Source: Candidatus Nitrosopumilus sp. (lineage in GTDB: Archaea; Thermoproteota; Nitrososphaeria; Nitrososphaerales; Nitrosopumilaceae). From it: 22,258 bases of DNA. This document shows, piece by piece, positions 15,116 through 21,589 of the stretch (position 1 is the stretch's first letter; every line of letters starts with the position of its first letter). Both the position numbers and the translations under genes were made by a program. Under the pieces are notes generated by a model. It did no database searches, had not been told where the DNA came from, and saw only the letters and a program-made list of their open reading frames with translations. The DNA is taken from the NCBI GenBank assembly GCA_011055585.1, contig DRGT01000164.1, forward strand, positions 1-22,258, written 5' to 3'.

Positions 15116-15475
15116 TTATGCCTTCAAAACAGTTGACACAACATGGTCAACTGCCTCGTCAAACTTGTCGCCTATCTTTTTTTGTACATTTTTTAGGTTT
15201 TCATCACCTTCGGTAGCTATTTTTTGAGATTCTAATTTGGCTTTCTCACGTGACTGTGCTATAATTGATTCTGCTTCTTTAGTTGCCATTTCAGTTACCT
15301 GTTTTCGCAATTTGTCAATTTCTTTCAGAGCCTTTTGATTTAGCTGATTCTTCATATCTGCTAGTTTTTCATCTAAGGAATCAATGTTAGACTCCAATCC
15401 CGATAAAGCTTTGATTATGTCATCAACTTTTGCAGGAGCAGTTGTAGTAACTGGGATTTCTTCAGTAGATGCCAT
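15116..15475 (-). CDS. A-type ATP synthase peripheral stalk subunit, H/G-like coiled coil
   Basis: The 119-residue protein is mostly one long coiled coil (about residues 20-100: LSGLESNIDSLDEKL ... ESIIAQSREKAKLESQK) ending in NVQKKIGDKFDEAVDHVVST. This matches the build of AhaH/NtpF-type stalk subunits, which pair with subunit E to tie the A1 head to subunit I. It follows subunit C on the same strand, which supports the call. I chose ATG 15475 (MASTEEIPV); an upstream in-frame TTG at 15523 would add 16 residues. A TATA-like ATTTAAGG lies roughly 20 bp before 15475. Sequence similarity alone would be weak, so the assignment rests on coil shape and neighbourhood. Confidence 0.6.
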   Translation of the reverse strand: MASTEEIPVTTTAPAKVDDIIKALSGLESNIDSLDEKLADMKNQLNQKALKEIDKLRKQVTEMATKEAESIIAQSREKAKLESQKIATEGDENLKNVQKKIGDKFDEAVDHVVSTVLKA

Positions 15476-15564: not shown

Positions 15565-16608
15565 TTATTCTATAGTGATAATCTTTGACATAGTAATTTG
15601 AGGATCAATCTTTTGTTGTACTGCATATGCAATTGCGGACAGGTTCCTCACCTCAAAAGTAGTCAACTTCAAAATTCCAATTACGTTAGACAAGCTAAAC
15701 ATTTTCGTAAACGTTCTATTCACTGTTCTAAAAATTTCAAGCTCAAATGATCTTTCAAACTGTGAAATAGCTTCTATAGGAACTTTTGTTTCTGGGATCA
15801 TTTCCTTATAGTATGTATTTTCTAGTTCACCAAATGCATCCGCTACGGATTCCATCGCACAAAGTCTAACTACCAAGTCTCTTGAAACTGTTGAAGTGTA
15901 AGCCACTATAAGGTCCAGTATTTGTTGTTCTTCTAACCCCCAGAATTTTCCTCTAAGCGTACTAAGTAAATTGAAAAAGTCAATATCCATTCTTATCAAG
16001 GGAACAACATCTCTCTCTCCAGACCTTTTCATCGCTGTACCTAATTGTTTGTAGAATATTTTTTCAAAATAGATGTCAAACACTTGCAAATCCTTTTTTT
16101 CATTATAAAGTGTAACTGCTTTTGCAACTTCATCCCCAAATTCACTTGAAGCTAAACTTGATGCAGCTTCCTCTATGTCTTTTGCAACAAGAGCCTTGAC
16201 AATTATGTCACGACGTCCAATTAGTTCTTCGGCTCGTAGATTTATCCGAGATTCGATCTGTTCAGATGGTATACCCAAAACTTTTCCTTTGAATATGAGT
16301 TTTAAATTCCAAATTAACAACTTTAGATAATACGCTTTCAAAACAGCTGACCCGCCTACAGACTTACCAAGGGAGTAATGGACTTCGGCAAGACGACTTC
16401 TTAAGAGAGCTTCTATTTTTTCTGGTGTAAATGGTGTTGTAAGCTTAGAAATAGAGTCAGCATAAGCAGTATTTTTTATTCTTGTTACGAGCTCATCTAG
16501 GTCTCTTGACTCGGCCAAAGTTTGAAGTTCTTTTTTTGAAAGTAATTTTCCACGTGCACTAAACGATTTTACAGAAGAAAATACTTTTTGAGGACCACCA
16601 ATACCCAA
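15565..16608 (-). CDS. atpC: A-type ATP synthase subunit C
   Basis: Subunit C (homologue of V-ATPase subunit d) caps the membrane rotor ring and couples it to the central stalk. The 347-residue length and helix-rich composition fit, as do the opening GKLLSKKELQTLAESRDLDE, the middle VVPLIRMDIDFFNLLSTLRG (the family's 'D..N....R.K' helix), and the closing EVRNLSAIAYAVQQKI (the family's 'NLR.I...K'). The frame has no ATG near the start; TTG 16608 is preferred because TATA-like ATTAAAAT (16633-16640) lies 25-32 bp upstream, fitting leaderless initiation. It has its own promoter, separate from the E-A-B-D block, and follows the K gene terminator. Confidence 0.9.
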   Translation of the reverse strand: MGIGGPQKVFSSVKSFSARGKLLSKKELQTLAESRDLDELVTRIKNTAYADSISKLTTPFTPEKIEALLRSRLAEVHYSLGKSVGGSAVLKAYYLKLLIWNLKLIFKGKVLGIPSEQIESRINLRAEELIGRRDIIVKALVAKDIEEAASSLASSEFGDEVAKAVTLYNEKKDLQVFDIYFEKIFYKQLGTAMKRSGERDVVPLIRMDIDFFNLLSTLRGKFWGLEEQQILDLIVAYTSTVSRDLVVRLCAMESVADAFGELENTYYKEMIPETKVPIEAISQFERSFELEIFRTVNRTFTKMFSLSNVIGILKLTTFEVRNLSAIAYAVQQKIDPQITMSKIITIE

Positions 16609-16715: not shown

Positions 16716-17018
16716 TTATTGTCCCAAGATGATAAACATCATTACTATACCATAGATAGCAATTGATTCTACCATCCCGATAAAGATGAAAACTTTTGAT
16801 TGTAGTGCAGGGTTTTCGCTGATTACTGCAAGACCTGCAGAACCTACATAACCTAATCCAATGCCTGCACCTAGTGCAGCAAGACCAAATGCAAAACCAG
16901 CACCTAACACTTTCATGTCTCCAGAAGCAGAAGATTCTACTTCTTCTTGACCGTAAACATTTGTAAAACCTAAAACTAATACCGAAAGGATTCCAATTAC
17001 GAAAACAAGGTACCTCAT
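16716..17018 (-). CDS. atpK: A-type ATP synthase subunit K (rotor c ring)
   Basis: This proteolipid forms the rotor ring in the membrane. The 100-residue protein has a signal-peptide-like N-terminus (YLVFVIGILSVLVLGF ... VYG-Q), then one two-helix hairpin: a glycine-rich first helix (GAGFAFGLAALGAGIGLGYV, residues 39-58), the polar loop SENPALQSK, and a second helix carrying the ion-binding Glu84 (GMVESIAIYG). A single hairpin per subunit means the ring is not of the duplicated V-type. No Gln is seen in the first helix where sodium-type rings have one, so proton use is likelier; that is inference. ATG 17018 has its own TATA-like TATATTTA (17044-17051) 26-33 bp upstream. Confidence 0.9.
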   Translation of the reverse strand: MRYLVFVIGILSVLVLGFTNVYGQEEVESSASGDMKVLGAGFAFGLAALGAGIGLGYVGSAGLAVISENPALQSKVFIFIGMVESIAIYGIVMMFIILGQ

Positions 17019-17043: not shown

Positions 17044-17051
17044 TATATTTA
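17044..17051 (-). promoter_or_regulatory. TATA-like promoter of subunit K
   Basis: The minus strand reads TAAATATA within GATTTAAATATAG, 26-33 bp before ATG 17018 and just downstream of the 43-aa ORF. It would allow extra production of K, which is needed in many copies per complex. Confidence 0.4.
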
Positions 17052-17066
17052 AATCATAATATGACT

Positions 17067-17198
17067 TTATGATTTTTCTAACATGGTTTTCTTAAAAGAT
17101 TCAAGATCACTTTTTATAGATTTTACAAAATCGTCATAATCTTGATCAAGACTTGATTTTGTACTTTCTAAAGTTTTCTTGATATCTTCTTTTGCCAT
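17067..17198 (-). CDS. Uncharacterised 43-aa protein encoded inside the ATP synthase operon
   Basis: This ORF sits between subunits D and K and is below the usual length cutoff. ATG (17198-17196) overlaps the subunit D stop by one base (TAATG), the same junction as between B and D, so it is very likely translated by coupling. The product begins MAKEDIKKTLESTKSSLDQD and continues as one charged amphipathic helix to MLEKS. It has 10 Lys against about 11 acidic residues, no cysteines and no membrane span. It is not a recognisable subunit F (about 100 residues) or H. It could be a small stalk or regulatory subunit; that is inference. Confidence 0.65.
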   Translation of the reverse strand: MAKEDIKKTLESTKSSLDQDYDDFVKSIKSDLESFKKTMLEKS

Positions 17199-17833
17199 TA
17201 CCCTTTTCTCTTTTCGATGACAGCTTTAACTTTTTTTAATCTTACGAATTCTTCCCGATCTCGTTCCTCTAATGTTGCAAGTATGAATCTTATTCGAGAT
17301 TCATACATAGGTATAATGATATTTTCAAGAGCATTCAATAATTTCTGAGTTTTCTCTAATGCTTTTGCTAAACTAATTATTGAATTTTCAAATTCAGCTG
17401 CCTTGCAAATTTGAGGAAGCATTGTTTTGATTTGTTTTGCTGCTCTATCAATTGTAGCATTTGTGTCAGCAAATCCATATGGCATCGAGTCAGCATGAAT
17501 TTCTTTAACAGAAAGCACGGGAATAGATACATCAACTATTCGTTTTACATCAACATCTATTTCCATAGAGGCTGGTGTAGACTGTGCAACTGAATCCACA
17601 GTGTTAGTTCCAAGAGTAAGATAAGCCTCATTCACCGTACGATAAACATCTTGAAGAGGAGTCCAAATATCTCCTCGAGCTTTTGTTGCTTCATCAATCA
17701 ATTCGTTGATTCGTTTCAGTAAGACTGCACGTTTATCATCTAAGATTTTTCGAACCATTGTAGCAACTTTACTTGAACGTCTGTATTTGAGAAGTTCAAT
17801 TTTGGTAGCTGATACATTTTGCCCAAATGACAT
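17198..17833 (-). CDS. atpD: A-type ATP synthase subunit D (central stalk)
   Basis: Subunit D is the long alpha-helical hairpin of the rotating central shaft inside the A3B3 head. The 211-residue protein has the family start VSATKIELLKYRRSSKVATM with RKILDDKRAVLLKRINELID, a middle variable loop, and the paired C-terminal helix ALENIIIPMYESRIRFILATLEERDREEFVRLKKVKAVIEKRK (split across about residues 165-210). ATG 17833 overlaps the subunit B stop by one base (TAATG). It is followed, again with a TAATG overlap, by the 43-aa ORF. Length and motifs are normal for the family. Confidence 0.95.
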   Translation of the reverse strand: MSFGQNVSATKIELLKYRRSSKVATMVRKILDDKRAVLLKRINELIDEATKARGDIWTPLQDVYRTVNEAYLTLGTNTVDSVAQSTPASMEIDVDVKRIVDVSIPVLSVKEIHADSMPYGFADTNATIDRAAKQIKTMLPQICKAAEFENSIISLAKALEKTQKLLNALENIIIPMYESRIRFILATLEERDREEFVRLKKVKAVIEKRKG

Positions 17834-19221
17834 TACTTGCTCGCCTTATAGTATTGATCAATAAACTTGTCTTTTACCTTGGTGAGTTCATTTTTTGGTA
17901 AAGCGGATGCTACCTTCCACTGAAGACCAAGTGTTTCTTCAAGATTTCTATTTTCATCTAGTCCCTGTGATAGAAATTCTTTTTCAAACATGTCCCCAAC
18001 ATCCATGTATTTTCTATCGACTTCTGTAAGGCCACCTTTTCCAACGATTTCAGAAAGTGCTCTAACTTCCTGTGCTCTAGAATAAGCATCGTAACATTGA
18101 TTTGAAATTTCCTGATGATCCGCACGTGTCTTTCCTTCTCCAACTCCATCTTTCATAATTCTACTAAGACTCATCAATACATTTACTGGCGGATAGACTC
18201 CTTTTCTAAAGAGTTCTCTACCAAGAACAATTTGTCCTTCAGTGATGTATCCGGTAAGATCGGGAATTGGATGGGTGATATCATCTGATGGCATCGAAAG
18301 TATGGGCATTTGAGTAACGCTTCCCTTTTTCCCTTTTAGTCTTCCAGCCCTTTCGTAGATAGTAGACAGGTCAGTGTATAGATATCCAGGATAACCCTTT
18401 CTCCCTGGAACTTCTTCACGTGCTGCAGAGATTTCTCTTAATGCTTCACAATAATTTGTCATGTCTGTAAGAATAACAAGAACATGCATGCCAAGATCAT
18501 ACGCAAGGTATTCTGCCGCAGTCAGTGCAACACGAGGCGTGATTATTCTTTCAATGGCTGGATCGTCTGCAAGATTTAGAAAGAGAACACTTCTTTTTAG
18601 CGCACCCGATTCTTCTAGACTACGTTGAAAGTATTTAGCTTCACTATATTGTACACCAATTGCTGCAAACACTACAGCAAACTCTTCTCCACTTCCAACC
18701 ACGGAAGCTTGTCTTGCAATCTGCGCAGCCAGAATATTGTGAGACATTCCAGAGCCTGAAAAGATTGGTAGTTTCTGTCCCCGTACAAGTGTCAACATAC
18801 CATCGATAACAGAAACACCTGTTTGGATAAAGTCACTTGGATAATCCCGTTGCTCAGGGTTCATTGGCTCGCCGTTTATATCTTCAAATTTGGATGCGAT
18901 AGGATCTGGAAGACCGTCTTTTGGTCTACCCAATCCATCAAAAACTCTACCGAGAATATCTTCAGAAAGAGGCATTGTCATAACTTTGCCGACAAACTTT
19001 GCCTTAGTTCCAGAAATGGAAAGACCCATTGTTCCTTCAAAAACTTGAACTACAGCTTTTCCATTTCCTACCTCCAAAACTTTGCCTAATCTTTTTTCAC
19101 CTTCCGTTGTTTGAATTTCTACAAGTTCATCAAACATGGCGTTCTCAACTCCATCCACTACAACTAGCGGTCCCTTAATTTCTGCAATCTTATTGTATTC
19201 TATTCCACCTTGTAACGTCAA
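17833..19221 (-). CDS. atpB: A-type ATP synthase subunit B (regulatory head subunit)
   Basis: Subunit B alternates with A in the head and carries non-catalytic nucleotide sites. The 462-residue protein has the family N-terminal barrel ([20 protein letters not shown]) and [20 protein letters not shown]. The former P-loop is replaced by FSGSGMSHN, as is standard for B. The central region reads [40 protein letters not shown] and [20 protein letters not shown] (the arginine-finger region). The C-terminal helical domain is intact. The start is TTG 19221, overlapping the subunit A stop by 4 bp (TTGA). No intein or truncation is seen. Confidence 0.95.
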
Positions 19222-21005
19222 TTGGTAACCTTCACTCCTGATATGTTCTTGAATTGTTCATTCATGTTCTGGCTCAATTGATCTAGTTGTTCAAGTTGAT
19301 CATCTGGAACGTCCATTCTAGCTTTTAACAAGTTACTAATGATAGGCAATGCACGAATGTCAGCTAGAGATGCATTCTCTTTCAGAGCACGTTGACCACT
19401 TTTGTAAAATTCAACTAGTAACTTCAAAAGCTTGAATTGTTTTTCTGGACTACAGTACGTATCTACTTTGTCAAAAGAGTTTTGTTGTAGAAAACCTATC
19501 TTAATCATTCGTGCTACTTCTAAAATGAGTTTTTCATCATCAGGTAATGCTTCTGGTCCTAACAGTCTAACAATTTCTTTAAGCGTATCTTCTCTTTGCA
19601 AGACTACATACGCTTCATTTCTCAAGTTGAGCCAATCTTCATTAACATTAGATTTCCACCACTTTTCTACATCAGAAAGATATCCGGAATAGCTGTTCAT
19701 CCAATTTATTGAAGGATAGTGTCTGGAATATGCAAGTCTTGCATCAAGTGCCCAAAATGTCTTGATGAATCTGATGGTATGAGTTGTAACTGGTTCAGTA
19801 AAGTCTCCTCCTGAAGGTGAAACTGCTCCAATCAATGTAACTGATCCGTGTCTCTCTGGACTACCAAGAGCATGAACCCTTCCAGCTCTCTCATAAAACT
19901 CTGCGAGTCTAGAAGCAAGATAAGATGGATATCCTTCCTCAGCTGGCATCTCTTCAAGTCTACCGCTCATTTCTCTTAGAGCCTCCGCCCACCTGCTCGT
20001 AGAGTCTGCTACAAGCACTACATCTTTTCCCATATCTCTATAATATTCCGCAATGGTTACTCCAGTGTAGATACTAGCTTCTCTTGCTGCCACCGGCATG
20101 TTACTTGTATTCGCTACCAGAATGGTTCTTTCCATTAGCGGCCTTCCTGTGTGGGGGTCTTTTAGCTCAGGAAATTCTATAAGAACTTCAGTCATTTCGT
20201 TTCCTCTTTCCCCACATCCTATGTATACAACAACTTGAGAATCAGCCCACTTTGCGATCTGATGAAGTGTAACAGTCTTCCCAGTACCAAAAGCCCCTGG
20301 AATTGATCCCGTTCCTCCTTTAGCCATAGGAAAGAACGTATCAATCACACGCTGACCTGTAATTAATGGAATATTTGGATCGGATCTACTGGTATAAGGT
20401 CGTGGTTTTCTGACAGGCCAATAATGATACATCTTTAGAGGAATCTTTTTTCCATCTTTTTCGGTAGTAGCAACTTCGGTTTCAAGATCATACTCACCTT
20501 CACTTACAATATTTGTTATCTTGCCACCTTGATGATTAGGCGGAACCATAATACTATGTAGGGTTAGTTGAGTTTCTTGAACTTCTCCCAACACACTTCC
20601 AGCTTCTACTTCATCACCTACCTTCACAGTTGGAGTAAACTTGAATTTCTTTGTCATGTCAACTGGAGTAGTTTTAATGCCTCTGCTAATGAAAGAACCA
20701 GATTTCTTTGCAATTTCCCTCAAAGGTCTTTGAATACCATCATAAATTTGACCCATAATTCCCGGTCCTAGTAAAACACTCAATTGATTTCCGGTGCCGA
20801 CAACAGGCTCTCCAGGTTTGAGACCACTTGTAGATTCATAGACTTGAATAAACGCAACATCACCTGTTAGACGAATTATCTCGCCGATAAGATTGGCTTC
20901 CCCAACAGATACAGTTTCATACATTTTTCCATCAGACATTCCGTCTGCTTTTACTGCAGGTCCGCTAATCCAAACAATTTTACCTTTTGCCGTCACATCA
21001 ATCAC
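19218..21005 (-). CDS. atpA: A-type ATP synthase subunit A (catalytic)
   Basis: This catalytic subunit makes or splits ATP in the A1 head. The 595 residues have the family layout: the N-terminal beta barrel ([15 protein letters not shown]), the A-type-specific insert (about 110-195, [12 protein letters not shown] at its end), and a P-loop reading GAFGTGKT (237-244) instead of the usual [25 protein letters not shown] has the catalytic Glu, [20 protein letters not shown] follows, and the C-terminal helices are intact. Length shows no intein, which some archaeal A genes carry. The start is GTG 21005, overlapping the subunit E stop by 4 bp (GTGA). It is the second gene of the minus-strand operon. 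Confidence 0.97.
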
Positions 21006-21589
21006 CTTCCAAATTTAGTTGCAACATCTTTTCTTATCACGGGCTTTAGCCGTTCAAGTCTTGCATCAATTGTATTATCAAAATTCATTGAACCGTCTTT
21101 TGATTTTACGAAAATTCCCCCTATACATTCAATCGTATCAGAAGACAAGGTTGTACCTTTAAATTTTTTCAGTATAGATTTAACTAAATCGGAATCTCTT
21201 GCGTTGGTTGATATAACTACATCTGTAGTTCCTAATGATGTTATTGCTTCATCAATTAATTGAGTCATAAGATTTGTATAGTCTTTTTGTACCGATTCAC
21301 GAAGTTTTTCAATGGCTTTGTCGATGACCTTTTCGACAGACTCATCCACCAACAAAATCTGTTTGCTTCTTTCTGCTAAACCCGAACTTCCAATTATTTG
21401 ACTTTGTATCTTATCTGCATCTTTTTTTCCTTCTGCAATTATTCTATCATACTCTTGTTCAAGTGGAGGAAGTGAATCTGATAGAACCTTTTTAGAATTA
21501 TCAAGTGATTGCTTTAAGCTTTCCAATAACTCCTCTTCAGATTTTTTTAAAATTTTGTCAATCGTTTTTTCTAACGCAGCAGAACTCAA
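21002..21589 (-). CDS. atpE: A-type ATP synthase subunit E (peripheral stalk)
   Basis: Subunit E forms the peripheral stalk that stops the head from turning. The 195 residues are a long helix (about 1-90, with [20 protein letters not shown] and [18 protein letters not shown]) followed by the globular domain. That domain holds [17 protein letters not shown] and [20 protein letters not shown], the latter the family's 'GGxxxxSxDGxxxxDNT' signature, with [18 protein letters not shown] at the end. The start is TTG 21589; TATA-like ATTAAAAT (21613-21620) is 24-31 bp upstream, as before subunit C. It opens the E-A-B-D-ORF block and is transcribed away from subunit I. Confidence 0.92.

Follow-up and report, generated by a model that had tools for sequence, protein, structure and literature searches.

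A 43-residue helical protein encoded behind subunit D in an A-type ATP synthase operon of Nitrosopumilus, a positional equivalent of Sulfolobus epsilon

Between the genes for subunits D and K of an ATP synthase operon in Candidatus Nitrosopumilus sp. lies an open reading frame (ORF) of only 43 aa. Does it encode a protein and, if so, what is this protein to the enzyme? We studied it in the window, by which we mean the whole stretch of 22,258 nucleotides that was analysed (positions 1 to 22,258 of contig DRGT01000164.1), and in the corresponding loci of other archaea. The features that matter for the argument are the following:

starts 21682, plus strand: apparent subunit I, named by likeness to I of relatives; runs off the window
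21002..21589, minus strand: subunit E (PF01991, E 1.6e-19), first in the run E-A-B-D-small gene
19218..21005, minus strand: subunit A, start GTG (ORF and translation)
17833..19221, minus strand: subunit B, start TTG (ORF and translation); one-base junction with D
17198..17833, minus strand: subunit D (PF01813, E 2.4e-50); its stop codon shares one base with the start of the small gene (TAATG)
17067..17198, minus strand: epsilon-like 43-aa gene (ORF; purifying selection; single predicted helix)
17046..17053, minus strand: TATA-like octamer TTTAAATA, between the small gene and K (gap of 48 bp); probable promoter of K, conserved in spacers
16716..17018, minus strand: subunit K, the proteolipid (PF00137, E 1.9e-17); start codon ATG at 17018
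15565..16608, minus strand: subunit C (PF01992, E 5.2e-52)
15116-15475, minus strand: probable H/G subunit, following C (a hit below the cut-off to NCBIfam V-type subunit H, E 3.7e-7)

A protein gene under purifying selection

A previous sequence-only reading of this DNA had described the ORF, and its layout was reproduced throughout: coordinates, strand, 43 aa, the TAATG shared with D, the matching B-D junction and the gap of 48 bases to the start of K. Along E, A, B, D and the small ORF, successive genes of the window overlap by 4, 4, 1 and 1 bases, and TAATG is the sequence at both the B-D and the D-small ORF junctions. The check proposed in that reading, conservation of the frame and dN/dS below 1 across relatives, was run on 46 Nitrosopumilales-type sequences of 43 aa, which were compared as codons after dropping other lengths. 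The frame is open in all 46, and the +1 and +2 frames have stops in every one of them. The median dN/dS of the small ORF is 0.23 (from the 520 of 1,035 pairs with an ORF dS of 0.1-1.0), and the same 46 sequences give medians of 0.67 and 1.13 in the shifted frames and 0.71 in antisense; for comparison, D has 0.06 and K 0.17. In 22 disjoint pairs, the pN/pS of the small ORF is 0.214 (binomial p 6e-49), with around 196 nonsynonymous changes among 397 versus the 82% expected. The codon-usage log-odds per codon are 0.29 in the frame of the ORF versus -0.49 and -0.58 in the other frames. The 43-aa ORF encodes a protein on which purifying selection acts, and it evolves faster than D.

Such ORFs are rare behind other genes. 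Counted by a stricter rule as a control, charged non-membrane ORFs of 36-60 aa, starting at -20 to +45 from the preceding stop, were found behind 138 of 202 D genes versus 14 of 1,111 other ORFs of at least 150 aa, and one of these 14 (L188) is the same small gene counted twice. A chance ORF is ruled out by this rarity and by the frame-specific purifying selection.

The place of the ORF just before K would also suit a leader or spacer that serves the expression of K and encodes no protein. We regard this as very improbable, given the frame-specific selection, the loci that keep the ORF without K beside it, and the fact that K seems to have a TATA-like box of its own behind the ORF. All 45 spacers compared between the small gene and K contain the octamer TTTAAATA, where shuffles would lead one to expect it in 0.78, and in 42 of the 45 it lies 32-35 nt before the K start. 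It is probably an internal promoter from which the proteolipid gene is transcribed nearly without a leader. Its conservation at a near-fixed distance suggests that K probably has its own transcript start and that the small gene ends the E-A-B-D run. We rejected a role as leader for K on the strength of this box.

Association with A-type D and distribution among archaea

The link of the small gene to D is stronger than that to K: among the loci with the small ORF behind D, 6 of 86 in Nitrososphaeria and 9 of 48 elsewhere keep it though K was not found within 900 nt. It goes with the A-type enzyme. A profile built on 22 small-gene sequences found it beside D in all 10 genomes with A-type D (E 7.6e-14 or better), a result that is partly by construction because some of the 22 come from the genomes searched. 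In the 14 genomes whose D over the cut-off is exclusively V-type-like, the profile did not find the gene; its best match there lies within a longer frame (E 0.009). Four genomes have both types of D (G001, G108, G128 and G160), and in each of them the small gene follows the A-type D and a membrane ORF follows the V-type-like one. The labels A-type and V-type-like are our own, drawn from the D tree and from the ORF behind D and not from the published operons. In a FastTree phylogeny of 186 D proteins, whose details are unsure owing to long branches, the epsilon label requires 7 changes versus 48.7 with shuffled labels; the V-type-like rows L159 and L160 were labelled 'none' by rule, which leaves the epsilon label unaffected.

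The V-type-like operons have a conserved small membrane ORF of their own directly behind D (L158-L164 and L166-L175; also L216, L218 and L219). It is mostly 41-43 aa long, has a motif around QQKKFY...RAFK.GNI and often starts with a TTG that overlaps D. The two examples that we scanned had no Pfam match. It could be an unlisted subunit and perhaps, at a guess, an AhaG-like one. In G001 (L170), the two operons are neighbours: about 6.7 kb of a single contig separates the A-type D gene from the V-type-like one.

All 10 Nitrososphaerota loci matched by the D of the window have a small ORF behind D. We sampled part of the 192 Nitrososphaeria genomes with D (30 loci, then 20+20+20 regions, and 30 low-scoring genomes). 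Among 106 distinct Nitrososphaeria D loci, where V-type-like loci in one of the 20-region sets were chosen on purpose and fractions are not prevalences, 86 show a charged one-helix ORF of 41-56 aa at an offset of -14 to +18 from the D stop. The remaining ones have a membrane ORF behind D (19 loci) or a longer membrane ORF that lay outside the counting rule (L177). In 30 further genomes with a low-scoring D, the ORF behind D is epsilon-like in 10 and a membrane ORF in 3; the other 17 have a different gene there, which on visual inspection is mostly that for subunit C or for a methyltransferase. Outside Nitrososphaeria, the rule finds a small ORF behind D in 48 of 84 loci, and in none of the 11 bacterial loci among the 84. 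Two archaeal loci that fall outside the rule, L016 (a run of N) and L113 (start at +218), do carry the gene by eye, and 23 of the 73 archaeal loci outside Nitrososphaeria have no small ORF behind D, by rule or by eye. The D-linked small gene is common in Nitrososphaeria and not universal. Its absence from many loci implies that the enzyme can do without a D-linked copy, which counts against the reading, given below, as a part of the enzyme. The sequence-only reading had thought a lineage-specific subunit plausible; this restriction was not borne out, since ORFs at the same position are widespread in Nitrososphaeria and in other Thermoproteota.

One of eight genomes searched (G007, SAT137) has a second epsilon-like copy, on the minus strand of L204 at about 1593-1697. 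Over 34 residues it shares 74% identity with the D-linked copy, and it lies in frame at the N-terminal end of the gene for the 49-kDa subunit of NADH dehydrogenase (NuoD).

Sulfolobus epsilon and other candidate identities

The window protein was unmatched among rotary ATPase subunits in our profile searches, as the sequence-only reading had anticipated, but a named counterpart exists at the same place in Sulfolobus. The ORF at this position in Sulfolobus acidocaldarius is named membrane-associated ATPase epsilon or ATP synthase epsilon subunit, and corresponds to Pfam PF08112 (ATP-synt_E_2). Both genes lie between D and K (Sulfolobales-like loci L098-L101, L104, L106 and L107), and both products are small charged helices of about 40-55 aa with the same repeat angle. 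The S. acidocaldarius epsilon has 53 aa by ORF call, 10 residues more than the window protein. The latter differs from it in having no PF08112 match at E up to 1 and in its weak direct profile similarity. PF08112 recognises 5 of 42 members of the small-gene family and is over the cut-off in 4 of 16 genomes searched, with matches limited to Sulfolobales-like genomes.

We compared trimmed groups of small proteins, profile against profile. A shuffle control covered 15 of the 45 pairs of groups, for the most part the stronger pairs: each of the 15 scored above all of its 60 column shuffles and above the reversed alignment. Nitrosopumilales are linked to other Nitrososphaeria at 95-97%. The intermediate Nitrososphaeria group X41 is linked at 90-96% to Nitrososphaeria groups (96% to deep Nitrososphaeria), at 93% to both the Thermoproteales-like group and X77, at 75% to Methanomethylicota and at 47% to Sulfolobales. 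The direct link between Nitrosopumilales and Sulfolobales is weak (21% trimmed, 39% untrimmed), and lies above 60 of 60 shuffles. These results could also be read as non-homology, with D-linked ORFs that arose or were recruited separately in Nitrososphaeria and Sulfolobales, which would make the window gene an invention of Nitrososphaeria. The weak direct link fits this alternative, as do the failure of PF08112 beyond Sulfolobales-like genomes, the several group pairs among the 45 that fall below 5%, and the fact that Sulfolobus epsilon scores higher with the N-terminal E helix (60%) than with any other epsilon-like group. Yet place, length, helix and repeat angle are all shared, and X41 bridges Nitrososphaeria, Thermoproteales-like, X77, Methanomethylicota and Sulfolobales (47-96%), so that we find separate origins unlikely. 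Given the weak direct link, the lack of a PF08112 match and the stronger chain through X41, we class the window protein as the positional equivalent of Sulfolobus epsilon and probably its remote homologue; it is not a member of PF08112.

Other identities fared less well. F or H in disguise is ruled out, since no match of the window protein to the F (PF01990) or H/G profiles was found and relatives have separate F and H candidates. The sequence-only reading had argued that the locus lacks F, making an additional small subunit plausible, but this argument falls, as a search of 16 relatives recovered F in every one. Each of the 13 Nitrososphaeria in this set has an F copy remote from the A-type D, either on a separate contig or at a distance of hundreds of kilobases; in G001, a further copy lies between the two D genes, about 3 kb from the A-type one. 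The H/G candidate of the window has homologues in 12 of 12 Nitrososphaeria genomes searched. Among the 140 matches that a profile search of the PDB gave up to E 10, the best being chloroplast b' (E 0.0021), there were only coiled coils and similar structures, and we recognised no solved homologue. A match to the NCBIfam F0F1 subunit B' (E 0.0065; 16.7 bits versus a cut-off of 118) was likewise taken as coiled-coil likeness. The 19 close relatives in databases include 17 that are unnamed, one conserved hypothetical protein and one with a protease-ATPase name, which looks like a misannotation. An alignment-based search added seven relatives, none of them with a functional name; one is a hypothetical protein of a Methanomethyliaceae archaeon. 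A literature search, with most subscription papers outside its reach, gave nothing on a thaumarchaeal epsilon or on the window gene; the work of Denda et al. 1990 is said to deal with the Sulfolobus operon.

Possible role and comparison with known systems

The AlphaFold2 model of the window protein is one helix spanning residues 2-42 (pLDDT 95.6), which supports the single charged amphipathic helix of the sequence-only reading. The hydrophobic face repeats at 96-98 degrees per residue in 10 of 10 small-ORF groups, an angle that is coarsely resolved with about 43 residues. H repeats at 96.5-97 degrees in most sequence windows (99-101 in the first three) and E at 95-99.5 degrees in its first seven, N-terminal ones. 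The windows of D range over 93.5-115 degrees, with some at 93.5-98.5, so the repeat does not single out E and H. The coil of E and H is right-handed, and the angle suggests, but does not show, that the small protein forms a right-handed coil like that of the peripheral stalk.

The explanation to which we give slightly more credence than doubt is that of a genuine gene for a 43-aa helical protein of the A-type ATP synthase, equivalent in position and probably remotely homologous to Sulfolobus epsilon. The protein would be translated in step with D and would attach to a stalk of the A1 part, as a small helix with a role in structure or assembly. The stalk could be the D-containing central one, or the protein could form an extra strand beside the E/H peripheral stalk, which has a similar helical repeat. 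The idea of a small stalk or inhibitor subunit, put forward from the sequence, thus keeps its real gene, its B-D-like junction, its operon place and its amphipathic helix, and a subunit remains plausible; its restriction to one lineage and its argument from a missing F have to be given up.

The inhibitory half of that idea is the main functional rival. IF1 and zeta are inhibitory helices of ATP hydrolysis, and cyanobacteria have a small ATP synthase regulator, AtpTheta. An inhibitor or regulator of this kind would insert its helix into the A3B3 head or lock the rotor when the proton gradient falls. The size and the single charged helix of the window protein fit such a function, and so does its faster evolution relative to D (dN/dS 0.23 versus 0.06). 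However, a fixed operon place overlapping D suggests steady 1:1 production and not conditional expression, and we consider an inhibitor unlikely. That the gene is constantly paired with D, and that its helix repeats much as E and H do, makes us lean towards a structural helix.

On a broader scale, one may propose that epsilon is a further stoichiometric subunit in the A-type ATP synthases of ammonia-oxidising archaea and of many other Thermoproteota, missing from the accepted list and built onto D as D is made, and that an unrelated small membrane protein takes the place behind D in the V-type-like enzyme of the same lineages. For us, belief and disbelief in this proposal are evenly balanced.

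Two other small proteins invite comparison. AhaG of the Methanosarcina mazei A1A0 ATPase is also a small product (6.3 kDa) listed next to D, and the gene order ahaGDBAFCEKIH is tabulated for Methanothermobacter; the membership of AhaG in the enzyme is itself regarded as doubtful (PMC4350412). By its description, AhaG is unlike the charged helix of the window: of its two larger tryptic peptides, one is said to be very hydrophobic. Our guess is that the membrane ORF of V-type-like operons may be its closer counterpart. AtpTheta, also set beside the window protein by description only, is a small regulator of ATP synthase too, but of an F-type enzyme and expressed from its own regulated gene.

In ammonia-oxidising archaea, the type of ATP synthase separates ecological groups. 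The available part of the study that reports this gives A, B, D, E, F, I and K as common to all ammonia oxidisers, identifies eight of nine subunits of the A-type enzyme and reports no clear H in neutrophilic species; its subunit listing does not mention epsilon (Wang et al. 2019, PMC6863869). If the small protein is a subunit, the D-tied gene and the H candidates in 12 of 12 genomes would change this parts list. The gene offers a direct target for cryo-EM, and epsilon, which Pfam recognises only in Sulfolobales-like genomes, gains a wider setting. In summary, the window gene occupies the position of the little-studied epsilon gene of Sulfolobus and probably encodes an overlooked part of the enzyme.
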